Part shown: piece by piece, positions 3,990-14,046 of the stretch
Layout of the letters: every line of letters starts with the position of its first letter
How positions within the stretch are numbered: the first letter of the stretch is position 1
NCBI GenBank assembly: GCA_905373325.1
Contig: CAJPTB010000009.1
Coordinates: 1-14,370 of the forward strand
Length of the DNA stretch: 14,370 bases
DNA from: an uncultured Ancrocorticia sp.
GTDB lineage: Bacteria; Actinomycetota; Actinomycetes; Actinomycetales; Actinomycetaceae
Direction: 5' to 3'
Program-made: the position numbers and the translations under genes
Notes under the pieces: model-generated
Told to the model about the DNA's origin: nothing
The model's database searches: none
Seen by the model: only the letters and a program-made list of their open reading frames with translations

Positions 3990-4703
3990 TCACGACCACG
4001 GCGCGATCGCCGCGGCCACGGCACGCCACACTTCGAGCGACGTCACGGCCACGGGAACCGCGGTGTCGCCATCGACCGTGATCCCGACCATGCCGGCCGA
4101 CGTGTCGAGGACGCACACGGTGGTGCGCGCCTGAGGCTCGCCGACGGCGACGTCGAAGGACTGAATGAGCCACAGCCGCCAGTCGTCCTTTTTGATCGCC
4201 TCGCTGGCGGCCGGCCACACCCCTCTGAGCGTCTCGGCGAGGTCGTCGCGGGCTTTGGCGTTGCGGTCGCTGTCGCTCGGGCGCAGGAGGTCGCGGATGA
4301 TTCTCGCGGAAAAACCCGGAAGGGCGCCCTCCGGGAGGCGGGGCCGAGGGCCGATGCCGAGCATCTCCAACAGCGTGAGCGGAAACTGGCCCGGCTCCTG
4401 CCGCCGCAGAACCGTCACCTCGCCGTCGGTGATGTCGAGCAGCACGCTGCGGTCCTTGGCCACCCACGTGCGGGCTTCGCGCACCACTCCGGCGTCGCAC
4501 ACATATAGACGCACCGCTCCCGCGGCCTGCTGATAGGCCTGCAGAAGCTTTGCAGCCGACTGCGAGAGTGCGCCGTTTTCAAGGAAGCCGCGCTGCTCAA
4601 GGTCGCCCATGAGGTTGAGGGGCGCGCCCTCGCCGTCGAGAAGGTCTTTCAAGGCCTCCCATTCGTCGGTGGGGAAGACGACGCTGATCGTGTCGCTGCT
4701 CAT
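3990..4703 (-). CDS. EspG-like type VII secretion chaperone candidate (copy A)
   Basis: 237 residues, no signal peptide or membrane segment, probably cytoplasmic. The ATG at 4703 has AGGAGG upstream and overlaps the previous gene's stop (ATGA), so the two are translationally coupled. The layout resembles ESX EspG chaperones: an early L..RGFLE.GALS motif, a hydrophobic strand series with DAGVVREAR, an acidic GEV strand, a P-rich turn (IGPRPRLPEG), and a C-terminal VWRAVAAAIAP helix. EspG proteins bind PE/PPE-type substrates and hold them for secretion. The 231-residue protein at 7916-8611 aligns along its whole length, sharing DAGV, LxxGPR, the DWxLW tryptophans and VCVLDTSxG. The EspG assignment is by eye; paralogy between A and B is certain, the function is inferred. 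Confidence 0.6.
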   Translation of the reverse strand: MSSDTISVVFPTDEWEALKDLLDGEGAPLNLMGDLEQRGFLENGALSQSAAKLLQAYQQAAGAVRLYVCDAGVVREARTWVAKDRSVLLDITDGEVTVLRRQEPGQFPLTLLEMLGIGPRPRLPEGALPGFSARIIRDLLRPSDSDRNAKARDDLAETLRGVWPAASEAIKKDDWRLWLIQSFDVAVGEPQARTTVCVLDTSAGMVGITVDGDTAVPVAVTSLEVWRAVAAAIAPWS

Positions 4704-5149
4704 TGTTCGCCTCCTGAGGGCTCGAAGCTGGTGGCCATGTCGATCAGAGAGTCGCCGATCGTGGGAAGGTCGGCGGAGGCGCACGTGACCGTCACGACGT
4801 AGCCGGGCCTCCTGGCCGAGCGCCTGCCTCCCGTCAGCAGCGCGAACTGCATCTGGGTGACGTTGACGGTTTCAACGGTCATCGACAGGGCGTGGACGAT
4901 TGCCGGGTGGCCCGCTATTTCCAATCCACCGACGTCGATGACGTGCAAACCTGGAATCGTCTGGGACGATTCTTCGATCATGGCGGCGGCCCAATCGTCG
5001 AGCGTGCCGCTGACTCCCTCCTCGTACGTGACGACGGCGGAGGGCGAGTAGCCCAGGTAGCCCCGGGGGCCCATGGCGATGTACTTGGCAGCCTGATATT
5101 CGTCCGGCACATCGCGGACCTGCCAGGAATCAGGTAGCGTGAGATGCAT
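4700..5149 (-). CDS. LpqN/DcrB-like small protein (copy A)
   Basis: 149 residues, no signal peptide. It opens with MHLTLPDSWQV, the beta-strand start common in LpqN/DUF1795 (PsbP/DcrB-fold) proteins, and carries the family-like core IPGLHVIDVGGLEIAGHPA, then Q-rich and V-rich strands and a C-terminal helix ending in SFEPSGG. Copy B (7494-7916) shares VxDVGG, GHPAxV, VET/TET, TQM and the terminal SF motif. In mycobacteria LpqN-type proteins are lipoproteins; this one lacks a lipobox and is likely cytoplasmic. It overlaps the EspG-like gene by 4 nt, so they probably form one operon. A TAGGAT box lies 6 nt before the ATG. Its role is unknown; pairing with an EspG-like gene twice in this window suggests a shared task. 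Confidence 0.6.
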   Translation of the reverse strand: MHLTLPDSWQVRDVPDEYQAAKYIAMGPRGYLGYSPSAVVTYEEGVSGTLDDWAAAMIEESSQTIPGLHVIDVGGLEIAGHPAIVHALSMTVETVNVTQMQFALLTGGRRSARRPGYVVTVTCASADLPTIGDSLIDMATSFEPSGGEQ

Positions 5150-5916: not shown

Positions 5917-6015
5917 TATGTTCTGGCGCTTATCCTCAACTCAACTTCGGAAGCTCTCCGGCAGGGCTGGGAAGGACTCCCCAAGACGCTGCACTTCTTC
6001 TAGGGATAAGCTTTT

Positions 6016-6036
6016 TCATGTATCACGTAAACATGA
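6016..6036. promoter_or_regulatory. operator-like dyad before the EspC-like gene
   Basis: TCATGT (6016-6021) and ACATGA (6031-6036) are inverted repeats with a 9-nt spacer, about 80 nt before the EspC-like start. The size and spacing suit a dimeric regulator, but 6-bp arms may arise by chance. Confidence 0.25.
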
Positions 6037-6115
6037 GCTCGTTGTGGATTCGCAGTCTTTCCCTGAGCCCAGGGAGCTTGAGGCTGGCGCGGGCGAACTT
6101 AGTAGGAGACAAGGC

Positions 6116-6463
6116 GTGTCTACAGATGATTACCTCCGTTACAACGACCCTTCCCAGGAGTATCTCCAAGTTGACCCCCAGGAAATGGAGGCTGCGGCGA
6201 AGGGGTACGAGCAGTTGGGGGAGGAGATAAGGGGTGCCAAACTCGCCGATCCCTCGGGGTTTGGACGTTCCGACAGTTTCGCTTCAAAGGTGGTTGGATA
6301 CTTTCGTTCCAAAGTTGAAAGTGAGGCAACCTCCGTAGAGGGGCTGGCTGAGGGTGTCCGCTATGTGACCAATATGGTCGTGCAGCAGGATGGAGAGTCT
6401 GGTCAAGCTTTTAATCTCGACCAGTACGGCGAGTTTCTTGAAAAAATGGAGGGCAAGAAATGA
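6116..6463 (+). CDS. EspC-like small type VII secretion protein
   Basis: 115 residues. The GTG at 6116 is chosen for its AGGAG (6104-6108) and because the protein then has the expected ~100-residue size. Residues 19-50 (VDPQEMEAAAKGYEQLGEEI) match the opening of ESX EspC-type secreted proteins, V-D-P followed by an amphipathic Ala-rich helix. A second helical region runs from ~60 to 115, giving a helical-hairpin layout. There is no W-x-G. The only YxxxD is at residues 16-20, not at the C-terminus where the ESX export signal normally lies. Its stop overlaps the next start (ATGA), so it is translationally coupled to the WXG protein and may be its secretion partner. Base composition is visibly lower in GC than in panD or lysS. 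The family call is by eye. Confidence 0.65.
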   Translation: MSTDDYLRYNDPSQEYLQVDPQEMEAAAKGYEQLGEEIRGAKLADPSGFGRSDSFASKVVGYFRSKVESEATSVEGLAEGVRYVTNMVVQQDGESGQAFNLDQYGEFLEKMEGKK

Positions 6464-7488
6464 TAAACACTCATGTGGATGCCGATCCTGGTGCGATCGA
6501 GGCTGCAAAGGCCGATATAGAGGCGCTAAAGAGAAGCCTGGATGACTGGGTCTCTCGGCTCTTCGACATTGGTGGCAATCTTTTAGAATCCTGGAAGGGC
6601 ACTTCTGCTTCCGCCTTCGAGGAGCGGAACAGAGAGACAGCCAGCCACTATGATAATCTCAGCGAAAAATGTCAGGAGTACATTACGGTGCTGGCTGAGT
6701 TCCGCCACGAGATTGATGAAGTGAAAAAGGGATTCGAAAAGATGCGTGCGGAGGCGCTGACCAGGAATTTCCTCGTGACCGGTGAGGAGATTGAGCTCCG
6801 ACCGGAACCAACATTTGCAATACCGCAAATGCCCATTTTTCGTGAATTTGTTCGAGCTCATGACCTCCTCCGTTCCCGCGAAGCTCAGGCTCATAATTCT
6901 TTCCAAGTAAAAAGTGAGAGCATAGCGAGTCCTTCTTTCCTCGAAGGGCTAAAAGCCTCTTTGGGTGTTCCCTCTTGGTATGGAAATTCGTCTGCTGGTC
7001 GATGGCTGGATCATTTTAAGACTTCTAACATGATTTTCGGCTTCTTCGGTGACTTCCAAACGCTTTTGGGTGCTCTGTCCAACGTTGAAGAACTTAAAGA
7101 TTTCAGCAAAAAATACGGATATGGGATGACAGGGCTCAGCTTCCTTTCCGCGCTCGGAGACGGTTACGGAGCGTTCAAGGATCAGTGGAACCGTGATTCT
7201 TACGATCCAACATTGTCGTTTCCCGAGAAAGTTGTGCGTGCCGATCTCAAAGGAGGGTACGACGCAACTTTTTCTTTCGCTGGGCCTTACCTGGGCGCAA
7301 CACTCGGGACAGCCGCTGGTGCTGCTGTCAGCGGTGGGACTGCCGCAGCTGCCGGCGGATTTTTTGGCGGTCAAGCTGGTACTGCTGTGGCTGACTGGGG
7401 GAAGAGGCAGCTCAATGTTCCATTCAGCGAGTTCGTCGACAAACAGGTTAGAATGGCACCGAAATGGCTCAAGGATCTGAATGGGTGA
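6460..7488 (+). CDS. WXG-type secreted protein with C-terminal double glycine zipper (candidate type VII effector)
   Basis: 342 residues. ATG 6460 overlaps the previous stop and has GGAGGG upstream. The first ~110 residues are helical with W45-K46-G47 (SWKGTSASAF) at the helix turn, the WXG100 hallmark, followed by a long coiled second helix (~55-105). Residues ~110-190 are a linker. Residues 273-314 are Gly/Ala-rich and hydrophobic, with glycines at 275, 279, 283 and 287, and again at 299, 303 and 307: two GxxxG zipper runs. This resembles pore-forming LXG toxins such as streptococcal TelE. No enzymatic toxin motif is visible. It has no Sec signal, as expected of a type VII substrate. The LpqN-like and EspG-like genes follow within a few bases. 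A membrane-acting effector is my inference; a structural surface protein is the alternative. Confidence 0.6.
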   Translation: MINTHVDADPGAIEAAKADIEALKRSLDDWVSRLFDIGGNLLESWKGTSASAFEERNRETASHYDNLSEKCQEYITVLAEFRHEIDEVKKGFEKMRAEALTRNFLVTGEEIELRPEPTFAIPQMPIFREFVRAHDLLRSREAQAHNSFQVKSESIASPSFLEGLKASLGVPSWYGNSSAGRWLDHFKTSNMIFGFFGDFQTLLGALSNVEELKDFSKKYGYGMTGLSFLSALGDGYGAFKDQWNRDSYDPTLSFPEKVVRADLKGGYDATFSFAGPYLGATLGTAAGAAVSGGTAAAAGGFFGGQAGTAVADWGKRQLNVPFSEFVDKQVRMAPKWLKDLNG

Positions 7489-7493
7489 CAGGG

Positions 7494-7916
7494 ATGATCA
7501 CGCTTTCGGATGAATGGGTTGAAATCGACACGATGGATCCTGCCACACTGTTGATGGCTCGCAGGCCGCGAACGGACTATGGCTGCATGCCAGTTGTTCT
7601 CGTCAAGCGGCTTCTACGTGCTAAAAAAGGAATCGAGGAAGGGGTGTATGCGATTCTGGCGTCCTCGGTGGGCGAAAACCCAACATGTCGAGTACTTGAT
7701 GTTGGTGGGACTTCGCTCGATGGGCACCCTGCTGTCGTCGCCATGTTTACCTACAGTACGGAGACGCAGAATATGACTCAAATGCTCTATTACGTTGCAC
7801 CCGAAGGATCATCTGCAGATTATGTTCTGGCGTTCGCGGCTGCGACGGCCGATTTCGGCCCGACAGCTCGAGCTTTTACCGACATAGTGGCGAGTTTCCG
7901 GCTGGAGGAGGCCTGA
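7494..7916 (+). CDS. LpqN/DcrB-like small protein (copy B)
   Basis: 140 residues. ATG 7494 gives MITLSDEWVEI, which aligns with MHLTLPDSWQV of copy A, and lies 5 nt after the effector stop. An in-frame ATG at 7464 would add 10 unlike residues inside the upstream gene. The core VLDVGGTSLDGHPAVV, then TETQNMTQM, then a helix ending in SFRLEEA, matches copy A but with clear divergence, so the duplication is old. No signal peptide or lipobox. Its stop overlaps the next gene (TGATG). It lies between a putative effector and an EspG-like chaperone, so it could be a co-chaperone or an immunity factor; the sequence does not decide this. Confidence 0.6.
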   Translation: MITLSDEWVEIDTMDPATLLMARRPRTDYGCMPVVLVKRLLRAKKGIEEGVYAILASSVGENPTCRVLDVGGTSLDGHPAVVAMFTYSTETQNMTQMLYYVAPEGSSADYVLAFAAATADFGPTARAFTDIVASFRLEEA

Positions 7917-8611
7917 TGCGAGCCAACGCCAATGTTATCCTATCGGAAAGAGTATGGGATAATTTACATACTTTTCTTAAGGATGAACGCCTTCCGGAAA
8001 GCTGCATGGCTGAACTTACACGTCTAGGTTTTCTCGAAAGAGGGCTGCTCACCGACGTCGGACAAAGCCTTCTTGCCGCGTACATAGAACCTGTTGGGTA
8101 TGTTCAGCTCATTCTTAACGACGCCGGCGTCCTGCGGCACGCTGCGGCCTGGATTGATCAGGATAAGAAATCAAGCGTAGCTCAGATAGTCGACGGCGAC
8201 ATCGCGATATCGAGCTATAGACCCGCGGAGTTCCCCGTCGTCATGATTGATCTGCTTGATATCGGGCCACGCCGTATTGCTCATCCTCCGGCCGAAGTCA
8301 CTGTTCCCAAAGAGTGGGTGCTGGAGCTACTTGAATCGACCGATGCAGGTTTGGATGGCAGACTTGCTCGTGAGATAGGGGCATCGTGGCCTGAGGCATG
8401 CAACGCCATGTACGACGGTGATTGGAAACTTTGGTTTGTGTACTCCAGGTCGGCAAAGGAAGCGCAGCAGATTCGTGCGTCTGTTTGTGTTCTTGACACA
8501 AGCAGCGGTTATTTCAGCATTGTTTCGAATGGTGACGCTGCGATCATCCGTCCGGCCACAACTTTGCAGGTCTGGTGTGCGCTGGCGGAGGTGATCGCTC
8601 CCGCTACGTAG
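7916..8611 (+). CDS. EspG-like type VII secretion chaperone candidate (copy B)
   Basis: 231 residues, cytoplasmic-looking. ATG 7916 overlaps the upstream stop, with GGAGGAGG just before it. It shares the full layout of copy A: GFLERGLLTD, LNDAGVLRHA, a VDGDI strand, LDIGPRR, the GDWKLW tryptophans, SVCVLDTSSG, and a C-terminal VWCALAEVIAP helix. As with copy A, EspG membership is judged from pattern only. Position at the end of an EspC/WXG operon fits a substrate-specific chaperone. Codon use is lower in GC than in copy A, so the two copies have different histories despite lying 3 kb apart in opposite orientation. The next gene, lysS, has its own promoter 160 nt on. Confidence 0.6.
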   Translation: MRANANVILSERVWDNLHTFLKDERLPESCMAELTRLGFLERGLLTDVGQSLLAAYIEPVGYVQLILNDAGVLRHAAAWIDQDKKSSVAQIVDGDIAISSYRPAEFPVVMIDLLDIGPRRIAHPPAEVTVPKEWVLELLESTDAGLDGRLAREIGASWPEACNAMYDGDWKLWFVYSRSAKEAQQIRASVCVLDTSSGYFSIVSNGDAAIIRPATTLQVWCALAEVIAPAT

Positions 8612-10595: not shown

Positions 10596-10901
10596 TCACT
10601 TGTCGGTCATGGAGCCGTCCTTCATCGAGCCGTCTGTTCCCTTGTCCTTCATGGACCCATCGGTCATCTTGTCCTTGTCGGTCATTTTGTCTTTGTCTGT
10701 CATCTTGTCCTTGTCGGTCATTTTGTCTTTGTCTGTCATCTTGTCCTTATCCGACATCTTGTCTTTGTCCGACATCTTCTCGTTTTGCGTCGTCGACATC
10801 TTGTCGGAGGGCTGATCGTCGGCGCTGCACGCCGCCAAGCCCAAGCCTGCGGCAAGGGCGACGGAGGCCAGAGCGGTCGATGCGAAGAATTTGCGAGCCA
10901 T
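10596..10901 (-). CDS. methionine-rich hexapeptide-repeat lipoprotein (MxKDx-type)
   Basis: 101 residues. ATG 10901 is preferred because AAGGA sits 6 nt before it; ATG 10907 would abut the ribosome-binding site directly. The signal peptide ends in the lipobox LAAC with Cys25, so the mature protein is anchored on the outer face of the membrane. The mature ~77 residues are almost entirely repeats: six copies of KM(S/T)DKD, then degenerate GSMKD units, with 11 methionines and many Asp/Lys. This resembles the pentapeptide MXKDX repeat family, with a six-residue period. It is divergent from dipZ and shares its promoter region, where mycobacteria keep the fasciclin lipoproteins Mpt70/Mpt83 with dipZ. 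An oxidant sink or metal-binding role is speculative. Confidence 0.8.
   Translation of the reverse strand: MARKFFASTALASVALAAGLGLAACSADDQPSDKMSTTQNEKMSDKDKMSDKDKMTDKDKMTDKDKMTDKDKMTDKDKMTDGSMKDKGTDGSMKDGSMTDK
10668..10775 (-). repeat. 18-bp tandem repeat, six units, in the lipoprotein gene
   Basis: Units begin at 10668, 10686, 10704, 10722, 10740 and 10758. The 36-bp pair 10668-10703 is repeated exactly at 10704-10739, so the last expansion was in two-unit steps. Each unit encodes KM(S/T)DKD. Copy number can change by slippage without breaking the frame. It is coding and has no spacers, so it is not a CRISPR. Confidence 0.9.
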
Positions 10902-10959: not shown

Positions 10960-10987
10960 GTTCGGCGCCGCAGGGCATGCCGGATGT
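10960..10987 (-). promoter_or_regulatory. SigK-type promoter for the Met-rich lipoprotein
   Basis: On the minus strand ACATCC (10987-10982), 16 nt, CCGAAC (10965-10960). As I recall, mycobacterial SigK promoters read CCATCC-N16/17-CCGAAT, so each box differs by one base. The predicted transcript starts ~50 nt before ATG 10901. Confidence 0.6.
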
Positions 10988-11008
10988 GTGAACTGTTGCA
11001 CACATCCG
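10981..11008. repeat. 10-bp-arm palindrome joining the two divergent -35 boxes
   Basis: CGGATGTGTG (10981-10990) and CACACATCCG (10999-11008) are perfect inverted repeats with an 8-nt spacer. Each arm contains the -35 of one SigK-type promoter, so the two promoters are exact mirror images up to their -35 boxes. It could also bind a dimeric regulator. Confidence 0.75.
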
Positions 11009-11029
11009 TGGGCGACGTCGGCGTCGAAC
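11002..11029 (+). promoter_or_regulatory. SigK-type promoter for dipZ
   Basis: ACATCC (11002-11007), 16 nt, TCGAAC (11024-11029), with the same spacing as the divergent promoter. The predicted start is about 30 nt before ATG 11066, leaving room for the AAAAGGA ribosome-binding site at 11055-11061. Confidence 0.6.
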
Positions 11030-11065: not shown

Positions 11066-12748
11066 ATGTTCTCGCAGATTCTCATCGGCTTGTTCGGCGG
11101 CCTGATCACGGGCGTATCGCCCTGCATACTGCCGATGCTCCCCATCATCTTCCTCGCGGGCGCGACCGGCGCCTCCTCCGACGGCAAGCCGCCGTCAAGA
11201 AAATACCCCCTCCTCATCACGCTCGGGCTGGTCGTCTCCTTTACGGCCGTGACTCTGCTCGGATCGACTGTCCTCAGCCTTCTGGGGCTTCCCCAAGATT
11301 TCATTCGGTGGGCAGGCGTCGCCTTCCTCGCGCTCATCGGTGTCTCGCTTATGATCCCGAAGGTCGAGGAATGGCTGGAAAAGCCGTTCGCGCGCATACG
11401 CATGAAACAGGTGGACAAGCGTTCCAACGGATTCGTCTTCGGCCTCGTGCTGGGAACCGCCTACGTTCCATGCGCGGGACCGGTGCTCACGGCGATCAGC
11501 GTGGCGGGCTCGACGGGGAGAGTCGGCGCTGAAACCGTGGCGTTGGCGATTTCCTTCGCCGTCGGGGTCGCCATTCCCCTCTTCTTCTTCGCCCTCGCCG
11601 GACGGGGCGTGACCGAGCGCGTCAAGGGGTATCGGAAGCGGCAGCGCGGGATCCGGATCGCGGCGGGAGGCGCGATGATCGCCTTGGCGGCGGGCATCGT
11701 CTTCGATCTTCCGGCGAAAATCCAGCGGGTCATTCCCGATTACACTGCGAATCTCCAAAAGGCCGCGGACGAGTACCTTCACGACGAGCAGTCGGGAAAG
11801 TTCACGTGCTCGCCGGATTCGGCCGAACTCGCCGACTGCGGGCCGCAGCCCGAGATAACCGGGATTGCCGCCTGGTTCAACACCCCCGGCGGTCGCGCCC
11901 TAGAGCACAAGGCGCCCGCCGGCGGAGTGCGGCTCGTCGACTTCTGGGCGTACTCGTGCATCAACTGCCAGCGCTCGGTGCCGGGGATCGAGAAACTCTA
12001 CAAGGCCTACCGCGACTACGGGCTTCAGGTGATAGGAATCCACTCGCCAGAGTACGCCTTTGAAAAGGTACCGGAAAACGTCAAGGGCGGCGCGCAAAAG
12101 CTTGGAATCACCTATCCCGTCGCCGTCGATTCGGATCTGAAGACGTGGAGCGCCTTCGACAACCACTATTGGCCCGCGCACTACCTCGTGGACGCGCAGG
12201 GCAAGGTTCGGCATATCCACTACGGCGAACATGGCGAAGCGAAGGCAGAAAAGCTCATCCGAGAATTGCTCGCCAAGCAAAACCCGGGAAAAAAGCTTCC
12301 CGATCCGGTTTTCTCCGACAAGGACGATTCGAAGGCCGACGCCGCTCGGGCCGAGGAGGCGAATCCGGAGACTTATCTCTTCCCGGATAGGGCGCGTTAC
12401 TACGACGGCAAGGTTCCCTTTGCCGAGGGCACCGTCGACTACGGGCAGTCAGACGACCCGAAGCCAGGCAAGTTCAATCTTTCAGGCAAATGGACGGCCG
12501 ACGGCGAATCGGCCGCGCCCGCTTCCGAGGGCGCAAGCGTAAAACTGGGGCTTCATTCCCGTCGCGTCTACCTCGTTGCATCGGGCAAAGGCCAAATAAC
12601 CTACACCTTCCAGGGGCGCAGCTACACAAAAAAGGTCGAAGGAATTCCCAACGCGATCGACCTTCTCCCCGGCGACGCCGCCAAGAGGGGCACCCTCACG
12701 GTCACGGCGAGCGGCGGTGTTCGCCTCCACTCCTTCACATTCGGGTGA
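11066..12748 (+). CDS. dipZ: DipZ: CcdA/DsbD-like membrane domain fused to thioredoxin-like and C-terminal domains
   Basis: 560 residues. Residues ~1-225 form the CcdA/DsbD-like electron-transfer membrane domain, with Cys20 (SPCILPMLP) and Cys136 (YVPCAGPVL) as the expected redox pair. Residues ~270-400 are an extracytoplasmic AhpC/TlpA-type thioredoxin domain with the active site C298-I-N-C301 (WAYSCINC) and the cis-Pro region NHYWPAHYLVD. Residues ~425-560 are the DipZ-specific beta-rich C-terminal domain (PETYLFPDRARYYD onward), likened to carbohydrate-binding modules in the M. tuberculosis protein. It carries reducing power from the cytoplasm to extracellular thiols. AAGGA lies 4 nt before the ATG. 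The sigma factor starts 123 bp later, and a SigK-type promoter precedes dipZ. The three genes therefore form a redox-stress unit as in mycobacteria, where dipZ is in the SigK regulon. Confidence 0.93.
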   Translation: MFSQILIGLFGGLITGVSPCILPMLPIIFLAGATGASSDGKPPSRKYPLLITLGLVVSFTAVTLLGSTVLSLLGLPQDFIRWAGVAFLALIGVSLMIPKVEEWLEKPFARIRMKQVDKRSNGFVFGLVLGTAYVPCAGPVLTAISVAGSTGRVGAETVALAISFAVGVAIPLFFFALAGRGVTERVKGYRKRQRGIRIAAGGAMIALAAGIVFDLPAKIQRVIPDYTANLQKAADEYLHDEQSGKFTCSPDSAELADCGPQPEITGIAAWFNTPGGRALEHKAPAGGVRLVDFWAYSCINCQRSVPGIEKLYKAYRDYGLQVIGIHSPEYAFEKVPENVKGGAQKLGITYPVAVDSDLKTWSAFDNHYWPAHYLVDAQGKVRHIHYGEHGEAKAEKLIRELLAKQNPGKKLPDPVFSDKDDSKADAARAEEANPETYLFPDRARYYDGKVPFAEGTVDYGQSDDPKPGKFNLSGKWTADGESAAPASEGASVKLGLHSRRVYLVASGKGQITYTFQGRSYTKKVEGIPNAIDLLPGDAAKRGTLTVTASGGVRLHSFTFG

Positions 12749-12858
12749 CAGATGAGGATGGCGGGGACAGCGGCGATACGTAGGGTGGCAACGCGTCCAA
12801 CGGTGGGGGCGATGCCGACTGCGAAGGGCGTTGCGCGGCGAGGCGCCGAGCGAGCCGT

Positions 12859-12874
12859 TAGCATAGTTGCCGTG
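12859..12874 (+). promoter_or_regulatory. -10 box with leaderless start of the sigma-factor gene
   Basis: TAGCAT (12859-12864), 7 nt, GTG 12872, again without a Shine-Dalgarno. It looks like a housekeeping promoter; no SigK-type boxes are seen here, so autoregulation like that of mycobacterial sigK is not evident, except by read-through from dipZ. Confidence 0.5.
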
Positions 12875-13420
12875 CACGATGCTCACAACGATCTTGACCG
12901 CTTGCTCGCCGCGGTTGCGAAGAGCGACAGCGAGGCCTTCGGCCTCCTCTACGACCGTGCTGCCGGCCATCTTTTGGCCCTCATTCGCCGCATTGTCGTC
13001 GACGCCGACCTGGCCGAGGATGTTCTGCAGGAGGTCTTCTGGCAGGTGTGGCAGCGTGCGTCGTCCTTCGACCCTGCGAAAGGCAGCGCCAAGGCGTGGC
13101 TGGCCGTCCTCGCTCGGAGGCGGGCCATCGACTGCGTTCGGTCGCGCGAGTCGCGACGTCTTCGCGAGGCTTCTTCGGCCAAATTCGAGGTCGAATACGA
13201 TTCTGTGGCCGAGGCCGTCTTTTCTCACGAGCGGAGCGGCGAGGTTGCGCGCGCCGTCGCCGGCCTCGACCAGCCGGTCCGCTCCTGCATCGACGCGGTC
13301 TTCTTCCGGTCGATGACCCACGTGCAGGCGGCGCAGGCTTTGAACATGCCGTTGGGCACCCTCAAGACCCATATCAGGAATGGAATCGCGCAGCTGCGCG
13401 AGGTTGTGGAGGACCGATGA
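12872..13420 (+). CDS. sigK: ECF RNA polymerase sigma factor, SigK-like
   Basis: 182 residues from GTG 12872. The frame is open upstream to 12752, but that part is unlike the family. Sigma-2 spans ~8-95: SDSEAFGLLYDRAAGHL, DLAEDVLQEVFWQVW (the core-binding and -10 region), and FDPAKGSAKAWLAVLARRRAID. Sigma-4 spans ~125-180 with the helix-turn-helix MTHVQAAQALNMPLGTLKTHIRNGIAQLR that reads the -35. The downstream RskA-type gene and upstream dipZ identify it as SigK-like. M. tuberculosis SigK has a redox-active disulfide in sigma-4; here only Cys139 lies in sigma-4, the other cysteine (Cys88) is in sigma-2, and the C-terminal cysteine appears absent. The stop overlaps the anti-sigma start (ATGA), giving coupled synthesis. 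Likely targets are the divergent promoters at 10960-11029. Confidence 0.9.
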   Translation: MHDAHNDLDRLLAAVAKSDSEAFGLLYDRAAGHLLALIRRIVVDADLAEDVLQEVFWQVWQRASSFDPAKGSAKAWLAVLARRRAIDCVRSRESRRLREASSAKFEVEYDSVAEAVFSHERSGEVARAVAGLDQPVRSCIDAVFFRSMTHVQAAQALNMPLGTLKTHIRNGIAQLREVVEDR

Positions 13421-14046
13421 CCGAACGCGACGACATCGCCTTCGGCACTCCCGAAGCCGAACTGCTGGGCGCGGCCGCCTTCGACGGCGAGCCGCTGCAG
13501 CCGCCCGCTAACGTCAAGGCGGCGCTCATGGCGCGCATTTCTTCGGGCGGCTCAGGGAATGCTCGCGCCGACGTCGTCGAGCTTCCCAGGCGAAGAACAT
13601 GGGTGCGAAGGCTTGCGGGGGCGGCCGCCGCCGTCTTCCTCGCCGTCGGGGGCTTCGCCGCGGGCAGGGCGTGGACGATGCGCGGAATGTCCGATGAAAC
13701 AAAGTTCAATGCCCTGAACCAGGCGTCCGATTACAGCCAGATGTCCCACAAAATGGCCGACGGACACACCATCCGGCTCGTGTGGTCGTACAAGGAGCAT
13801 TCCGCAGCGCTGGTCATGCCCGCGGGGATGCAGATTCCACGCGGAAAAGCCGTTCAAGCCTGGTCGGTCAAGGGCAAGCGAATGACCTCGATGGGCATGT
13901 ACCCTTCGGGAAGCAAGGCGCGGTACGCGTTTTTGTCTGCTATGCCGGACGAGGGGGAATCGGTCATGCTGACGATGGAGCCGGCTTCCGGTTCGTCCGC
14001 TCCGTCGTCGGACATGGTCGCGGACATCCCCATGGGCAAAAAATGA
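13417..14046 (+). CDS. rskA: anti-sigma-K factor, RskA-like
   Basis: 209 residues. It starts within the sigma-factor stop codon. The N-terminal ~60 residues are cytoplasmic and presumably bind SigK; no HxxxCxxC zinc motif is seen, in keeping with the RskA type rather than zinc anti-sigma factors. One membrane helix runs from ~66 to 85 (LAGAAAAVFLAVGGFAAG). The extracellular part is the RskA C-terminal domain: SAALVMPAGMQIPRGKAVQAW, then TSMGMYPSG, then a beta-rich end with MLTMEPASGSS. It is rich in Met. In mycobacteria, staged proteolysis of RskA frees SigK. Bases 13827-13867 recur as an inverted copy at the window's right end. Confidence 0.9.
   Translation: MTERDDIAFGTPEAELLGAAAFDGEPLQPPANVKAALMARISSGGSGNARADVVELPRRRTWVRRLAGAAAAVFLAVGGFAAGRAWTMRGMSDETKFNALNQASDYSQMSHKMADGHTIRLVWSYKEHSAALVMPAGMQIPRGKAVQAWSVKGKRMTSMGMYPSGSKARYAFLSAMPDEGESVMLTMEPASGSSAPSSDMVADIPMGKK
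13827..13867 (+). repeat. left arm of a 41-bp inverted repeat (inside rskA)
   Basis: Identical, in reverse complement, to 14330-14370. The arms are about 460 bp apart, and the right arm touches the window edge so may continue beyond it. Beyond 41 bases the match has one mismatch and then five more identical bases. Confidence 0.95.

Follow-up and report, generated by a model that had tools for sequence, protein, structure and literature searches.

Results

Gene organization of the locus

In the window, which is the whole 14,370-nucleotide stretch of DNA that was analysed, a gene for a methionine-rich lipoprotein and a dipZ gene are transcribed away from each other. The lipoprotein gene (10596..10901, minus strand, called as an open reading frame with its ATG at 10901) encodes 101 amino acids, with DKMTDKDKM-type repeats after the lipobox LAAC. 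The dipZ gene (11066..12748, plus strand, ATG at 11066) encodes 560 amino acids with a DsbD-type membrane domain and thioredoxin-like domains. Both remaining genes of interest are found downstream of dipZ on the plus strand: a SigK-like ECF sigma factor at 12752..13420, given here as the longest open reading frame, with homology beginning near 12878 and Pfam matches to Sigma70_r2 and r4, and an RskA-like anti-sigma factor of 209 amino acids at 13417..14046, with a methionine-rich C-terminal part and an RskA_C score of 51.3 bits (cut-off 29.4).

Among solved structures, the sigma factor was nearest to M. tuberculosis SigK (4nqw, 105.6 bits; the next structure scored 70.8), in agreement with the original prediction that SigK/RskA-like genes lie just downstream. 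The best NCBIfam model was SigK PRK09646, with a score of 160.7 bits that is under the curated cut-off of 226, and the protein is therefore called SigK-like and not SigK proper. The anti-sigma factor scored 97.5 bits against the NCBIfam antisigma model, just below the cut-off of 100. For the lipoprotein, Pfam returned no family and NCBIfam none above its cut-off; the curated MXKDX model was absent among the nine weak NCBIfam matches (E up to 10), and the likeness to MrpX/MXKDX peptides is one of composition only.

The gene arrangement is widespread in relatives. The DipZ protein of the window is 94, 70, 55 and 56% identical to those of four relatives, the first being Peptidiphaga gingivicola (G001/L084), the nearest compared genome, with which 36% of the window's 31-letter words are shared. 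The window accordingly comes from a member of the Actinomycetaceae that resembles Peptidiphaga. Matches to sigK and rskA were found within the fetched stretch in 32 of 35 loci (34 named loci and the window) and were absent from it in L108, L112 and L120, and a divergent methionine-rich lipoprotein was found in most relatives. The number of lipoprotein repeats varies between close relatives, as the protein has 101 amino acids in the window and about 131 in L084.

Two side observations concern other genes. Small proteins are encoded at 5918-8611 and 3990-4784 of the window, ahead of a lysyl-tRNA synthetase gene; by eye, the product of 7916-8611 (plus strand, without a Pfam match) resembles that of 3990-4784 (minus strand). 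Second, shorter dipZ-like matches occur in six genomes of genus g9 (G189, G196, G011, G199, G194 and G177), with 47-50% identity to residues 15-424 and one in-frame TGA or TAG each, which may reflect decay or another cause.

Twin promoters and a shared palindrome

The sequence ACATCC-N16-YCGAAC, which had been predicted on both strands, occurs twice without mismatch in the window, at 10960-10987 on the minus strand and 11002-11029 on the plus strand. The left promoter faces the lipoprotein gene and consists of a -35 box ACATCC (10982..10987, minus strand), called from the motif match and its conservation in relatives, and a -10 box CCGAAC (10960..10965, minus strand), called from the motif match and the family -10 tally. 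The right promoter faces dipZ and consists of a -35 box ACATCC (11002..11007, plus strand) and a -10 box TCGAAC (11024..11029, plus strand), the latter called from the motif match. With up to two mismatches allowed, the window contained 3 matches compared to 2.46 expected by shuffling. The loose motif alone is thus unremarkable; two perfect, divergent and adjacent matches are unusual.

Both -35 boxes are embedded in an inverted repeat (10981..11008), the arms of which (10981-10990 and 10999-11008) are 10 bp long, 100% complementary as predicted, and separated by 8 nt. At the center of the repeat is a 16-bp palindromic core, TGTGAACTGTTGCACA (10987..11002), that matches TGTGA-N6-TCACA, the standard CRP consensus, at 9 of 10 positions and is the only CRP-type site of at least 8/10 in the window. 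The center of this putative CRP/GlxR-type operator is 7 bp away from both -35 boxes, measured to their 5′ edges, and the last base of the operator is the first base of the dipZ -35 box.

Conservation of the palindrome in close relatives

P. gingivicola BA112 (L061/L084, G001) and Actinobaculum sp. oral taxon 183 F0552 (L062/L085, G003) have retained the two promoters together with the repeat. The expectation of conservation in relatives was borne out for the promoters and the repeat, but not for the exact -35 sequence, as both -35 boxes of G001 read ACATCT, a symmetric change that preserves the palindrome. In G003 the flanks of the palindrome are altered symmetrically on both sides and the arms are longer; the repeat is annotated as a feature on the basis of its perfect arms and of these paired base changes in G001 and G003. 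The asymmetric 8-nt loop was also kept, in the form GTGTGAA[A/C]TGTTGCACAC, in all three sequences (window, G001 and G003), indicating that more is conserved than two mirrored -35 boxes would require. With up to 3 mismatches allowed, TGTGTGAAMTGTTGCACACA occurred once in G001 and once in G003, and was absent from G002, G006 and G026. Taken together, these sequence comparisons support the presence of two divergent SigK-type promoters that are conserved in relatives and lie beside a putatively cognate sigma/anti-sigma pair.

The inverted repeat of oral taxon 183 (L085, identical to L062) has 16-bp arms, 6 bp longer than those of the window. Near-palindrome template-switch correction could be the source of both the longer L085 arms and the paired -35 change in G001.

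Promoter pairs and the CRP-type dyad across the family

A total of 90 upstream records were compared, consisting of 33 named loci, the window, and 56 records from other genomes, in which the same species often appears twice. The named loci used were 34 of 79, of which L120 (30% identity, promoter not found) was dropped before the 90 records were counted, and the best 56 of 73 dipZ-like matches from genomes were used; L107, from Corynebacterium, is counted among the 90 as a record without a pair. A strict divergent promoter pair was present in 59 of the 90 records, giving 39 distinct intervals. The promoters have the form ..ATC(C/T)-N15/16-NCGAA(C/T). Of 78 promoters, 67 have a spacer of N15 and 11 one of N16; CAATCC and CCGAAC are the boxes seen most often. 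The usual family form, CAATCC with N15, is unlike the ACATCC with N16 of the window.

A dyad resembling TGTGA-N6-TCACA was found between the -35 boxes at 7/10 or better in 38 of the 39 distinct pairs, and at 8/10 or better in 32. Four of the 39 pairs lie outside the set in which the pattern was first seen, and all four fit. The exception is A. oricola (L092/L168), in which both promoters are present and the best dyad between them reaches 5/10, so this locus is scored as being without the site. When 1,024 five-mers with 11 spacers (11,264 dyads) were searched openly in 35 intervals, TGTGA-N6-TCACA had the highest total (280 of 350), tied only by its shifted form GTGAC-N4-GTCAC. In 60 dinucleotide shuffles of the same 35 intervals, the maximum was 219 for TGTGA-N6-TCACA and 239 for whichever dyad scored best. 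Restricting the set to 20 chosen lineages gave a total of 157 of 200, compared to a shuffle maximum of 140. These dyad statistics, and the DipZ tree described below, rest on 35 pairs plus an incomplete set of single-promoter loci.

The 30 family records without a strict pair hold 15 distinct single promoters. In 12 of these the site is present at a distance of 7, 18 or 29 bp, and the other three (L104/L209, L112/L215 and L181) lack it at the expected places; in three family records (L180, L217 and L218) the promoter was not found. In the A. oris/naeslundii/johnsonii group (seven named loci) the promoter on the lipoprotein side is missing, and the lipoprotein has only 1-2 methionines compared to 4-20 in the others where it was found, counts that are biased toward methionine because the lipoprotein finder favoured methionine-rich frames. 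In A. denticolens (L087) the strict left promoter is missing, yet the lipoprotein has 10 methionines. A. culturomici (L108) has kept the promoters and the site; sigK was not found in its fetched stretch, and its dipZ contains an in-frame stop (G180).

Two promoter pairs without the CRP-type site, that of A. oricola (L092) and that of L271 from the same-order family f19, have other inverted repeats that extend the -35 boxes (GGATTGGAGAA..TTCTCCAATCC and GGATTGGTCGGA..TCCGACCAATCC, respectively), and these are perhaps the operator of a second regulator. In L107 (Corynebacterium sp. HS2168-gen11), a 9/10 CRP-type site, TGTGATTTATTTCACT, is seen by eye upstream of a CCGAAT box; a strict SigK promoter for dipZ was not found at this locus.

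Helical spacing of the operator-like dyad

Measured from the dyad center to the 5′ edges of the two -35 boxes, the distances were 7, 17-19 or 28-30 bp, and both offsets fell in these classes in 38 of the 39 pairs, compared to a maximum of 9 in shuffles. The pair of offsets is 7/7 in Peptidiphaga, and elsewhere 7/28-29, 17-18/17-19, 18/28-29, 28/18 or 28/30. For the 40 offsets of 20 lineages, which were hand-picked by the author from the tree, the best period was 10.6 bp with R = 0.961, the highest R among 2,000 random sets being 0.545. A. oricola, which has no site, was left out of this test and included in one on the gaps alone, which gave a period of 11.1 bp with R = 0.911 (null maximum 0.710). 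On the DipZ tree (42 rows), the operator arrangement changed at least nine times.

If transcription starts are assumed to lie 6-8 nt past the -10 box, then the offsets correspond to positions of about -41.5, -52 and -62.5. According to PMC7192510, CRP acts from -41.5 at class II promoters and from -61.5 at class I promoters. Given the assumed starts, about -41.5 and about -62.5 would correspond to the positions described for class II and class I activation, respectively, and the commonest offset of 18 bp (about -52, with the same assumption) is not a classical place for CRP.

Crp, adenylate cyclase and other sites in the genomes

A Crp orthologue with 64-100% identity was present in all 37 family genomes tested, which are relatives of the window and include G001 and G003. 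The A. oricola genome (G078) has Crp although its dipZ locus is without the site. Each of five genomes contained one strong HTH_Crp_2 protein, with other matches at, just over or just under the cut-off. The solved structures nearest to the G001 Crp were mycobacterial and related Crp/Fnr-family proteins (233 bits), and in the alignment to them the recognition helix region is near-identical. In f19, four of five genomes are without a Crp orthologue at 1e-20 and the fifth, G491, has a 27% match; among the five f19 dipZ loci, four are without an 8/10 site within 250 bp, and in the remaining one, L268 of G491, a site scoring 8/10 is found at a distance of 31 bp from the -35 box. L271 is the only one of these five loci with a strict promoter pair. 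In f22, a Crp orthologue with 51% identity was found in two genomes.

The adenylate cyclase family PF00211 was present in five of five genomes. In G001, a site of the form TGTGA-N6-GCACA (TGTGATTGAAGGCACA) coincides in part with the earliest start that the cyclase open reading frame could use (its 5′ end), and in G002 another of this form (TGTGATTGAATGCACA) is located 34 bp upstream of the cyclase open reading frame; no site of 8/10 or better was found near the cyclase in G003. CRP-type sites with at most one mismatch numbered 20, 11 and 16 per genome, compared to 7, 6 and 5 for the reversed pattern.

The original prediction had proposed a genome scan for ACATCC-like promoters as a means of defining the regulon, and such a scan proved uninformative. 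The pattern MATCYN{15,16}YCGAAY had 47, 25 and 35 matches in G001, G002 and G003; reversed, it had 6, 6 and 3. The excess in G002 is found in a genome with no dipZ match at 1e-60 and a sigma match of only 1.5e-4. The excess is therefore not specific to SigK, and a regulon is not claimed.

Discussion

We consider it likely that the palindrome is a CRP/GlxR operator fused to two SigK -35 boxes, and that cAMP-Crp co-activates SigK-RNA polymerase in both directions. The promoters, the operator-like dyad, its conservation and helical spacing, and the presence of a Crp orthologue and an adenylate cyclase are read from the genomes themselves; from these we infer the binding of Crp, cAMP as its ligand, activation as the effect, and the roles of the gene products. 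According to this model, the anti-sigma factor would free SigK upon an envelope signal, probably an oxidative one, and the freed SigK would recognise both divergent promoters. cAMP-bound Crp on the shared operator would contact SigK-RNA polymerase on either side and aid the start of transcription. Transcription of dipZ-sigK-rskA would then amplify the sigma factor itself, with the methionine-rich lipoprotein produced simultaneously from the other side, and full output would need both signals. The task of the system is likely the defense of the envelope against oxidants, by analogy with the ECF-controlled methionine-rich hypochlorite sinks described in the available part of PMC8315932.

In Peptidiphaga, the operator would be class II-like (about -41.5) for both promoters at once, and one Crp dimer could serve two polymerases, perhaps in turn. 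In other Actinomycetaceae, the same operator-like dyad lies one or two helical turns farther from one or both promoters. A broader reading, which we put forward tentatively and with somewhat less than even confidence, is that of an AND gate evolving across the family, in which one Crp dimer activates two SigK promoters and the operator has moved by whole turns at least nine times. Peptidiphaga would be the extreme case, with the dimer class II-like for both promoters and shared by two polymerases, and with the operator and the -35 boxes forming one palindrome.

The main rival to co-activation is that Crp binds but represses, which in Peptidiphaga would mean covering both -35 boxes and blocking SigK-RNA polymerase until cAMP falls. 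The overlap in the window is consistent with this, as the operator shares one defined base with each -35 box, its flanks cover more, and both promoters are served by one operator. In most relatives, however, the boxes are found 18 and 28-30 bp away from the site, which is too far to simply occlude the further promoter, and the helical phase is kept despite this distance, a phase that fits contact with the polymerase rather than occlusion. We therefore regard repression as unlikely, though a realistic alternative. There is also the simpler reading of the original prediction, that the palindrome consists of two extended -35 boxes of mirrored SigK promoters and involves no further regulator. Each 10-bp arm does owe 6 of its positions to a -35 box. 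This reading is very improbable given the conservation of the 8-nt loop across three species and the presence, in 38 of 39 pairs, of a TGTGA-N6-TCACA core in the interval separating the promoters, a core that persists outside both boxes where these are 35-58 bp apart.

The dyad alone cannot name the protein that binds it, and there are several weaker HTH_Crp_2 matches per genome, so a regulator with a similar half-site, either from a different HTH family or a second Crp/Fnr protein, has a slim chance of being the true ligand of the operator. The single strong HTH_Crp_2 protein in five of five genomes, the identity of the dyad with the standard CRP consensus, and the occurrence of the same form at the cyclase genes of G001 and G002 argue for Crp instead. 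Rex, the NADH-sensing repressor, has the operator consensus TTGTGAA-N4-TTCACAA, to which TGTGAACTGTTGCACA comes near by eye. As the dyad seen across the family has the TGTGA-N6 form and not that of Rex, we give this candidate virtually no chance. The Rex family PF06971 was above the cut-off in none of five genomes (one sub-threshold match, in G001), compared to 6 of 14 control genomes.

If co-activation by cAMP-Crp is true, then the promoter itself is the point at which the global cAMP regulator meets an envelope-stress sigma factor, and evolution has already tried out several spacings in which CRP acts together with an ECF holoenzyme. The family would then offer a natural series for asking which CRP-polymerase contacts survive when an ECF sigma factor replaces sigma-70. 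Among open-licence papers, none was found by title or abstract that reports CRP on SigK promoters, and nothing was found in the open-licence literature that joins DipZ, Actinomyces and a sigma factor.

A single CRP target that activates divergent promoters in E. coli was reportedly described by El-Robh and Busby in 2002, and the present locus is similar in that one putative site would serve two promoters. The placement of the putative operator at helically spaced distances from the promoters would also be similar to class I and class II activation by CRP (PMC7192510). In contrast to the known CRP systems, the promoters here are of the ECF sigma type and not sigma-70, both promoters of Peptidiphaga would be class II-like at once, and the geometry forms a natural series across the family.

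PMC7509140 describes SigK sites as conserved among Actinobacteria, and in M. tuberculosis SigK-dependent promoters are reported for mpt83, mpt70 and dipZ alike (PMC9861118). The locus is similar to the mycobacterial SigK/RskA regulon in having a SigK-like sigma factor, an RskA-like anti-sigma factor, and a dipZ target with its own SigK-type promoter. It differs in that the divergent partner is a methionine-rich lipoprotein and not an MPT83/70 protein, that sigK and rskA come after dipZ, and that a CRP-type operator lies between the promoters. None of nine f22 loci, presumed to be mycobacterial, had a 7/10 site within 120 bp upstream of dipZ, and a strict divergent pair was present in one of the f22 loci (L273), with a gap of only 3 bp.

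The locus also resembles the hypochlorite systems BcrS-BcrXQP of Brucella, in which BcrXQP is induced by HOCl, and MrpX of Azospira, since in each an ECF sigma/anti-sigma pair adjoins a methionine-rich repeat protein (PMC8315932, in the available text). Unlike BcrS-BcrXQP and MrpX, the window has a lipoprotein and DipZ rather than MsrP/MsrQ, and its sigma factor is SigK-like and not ECF16.
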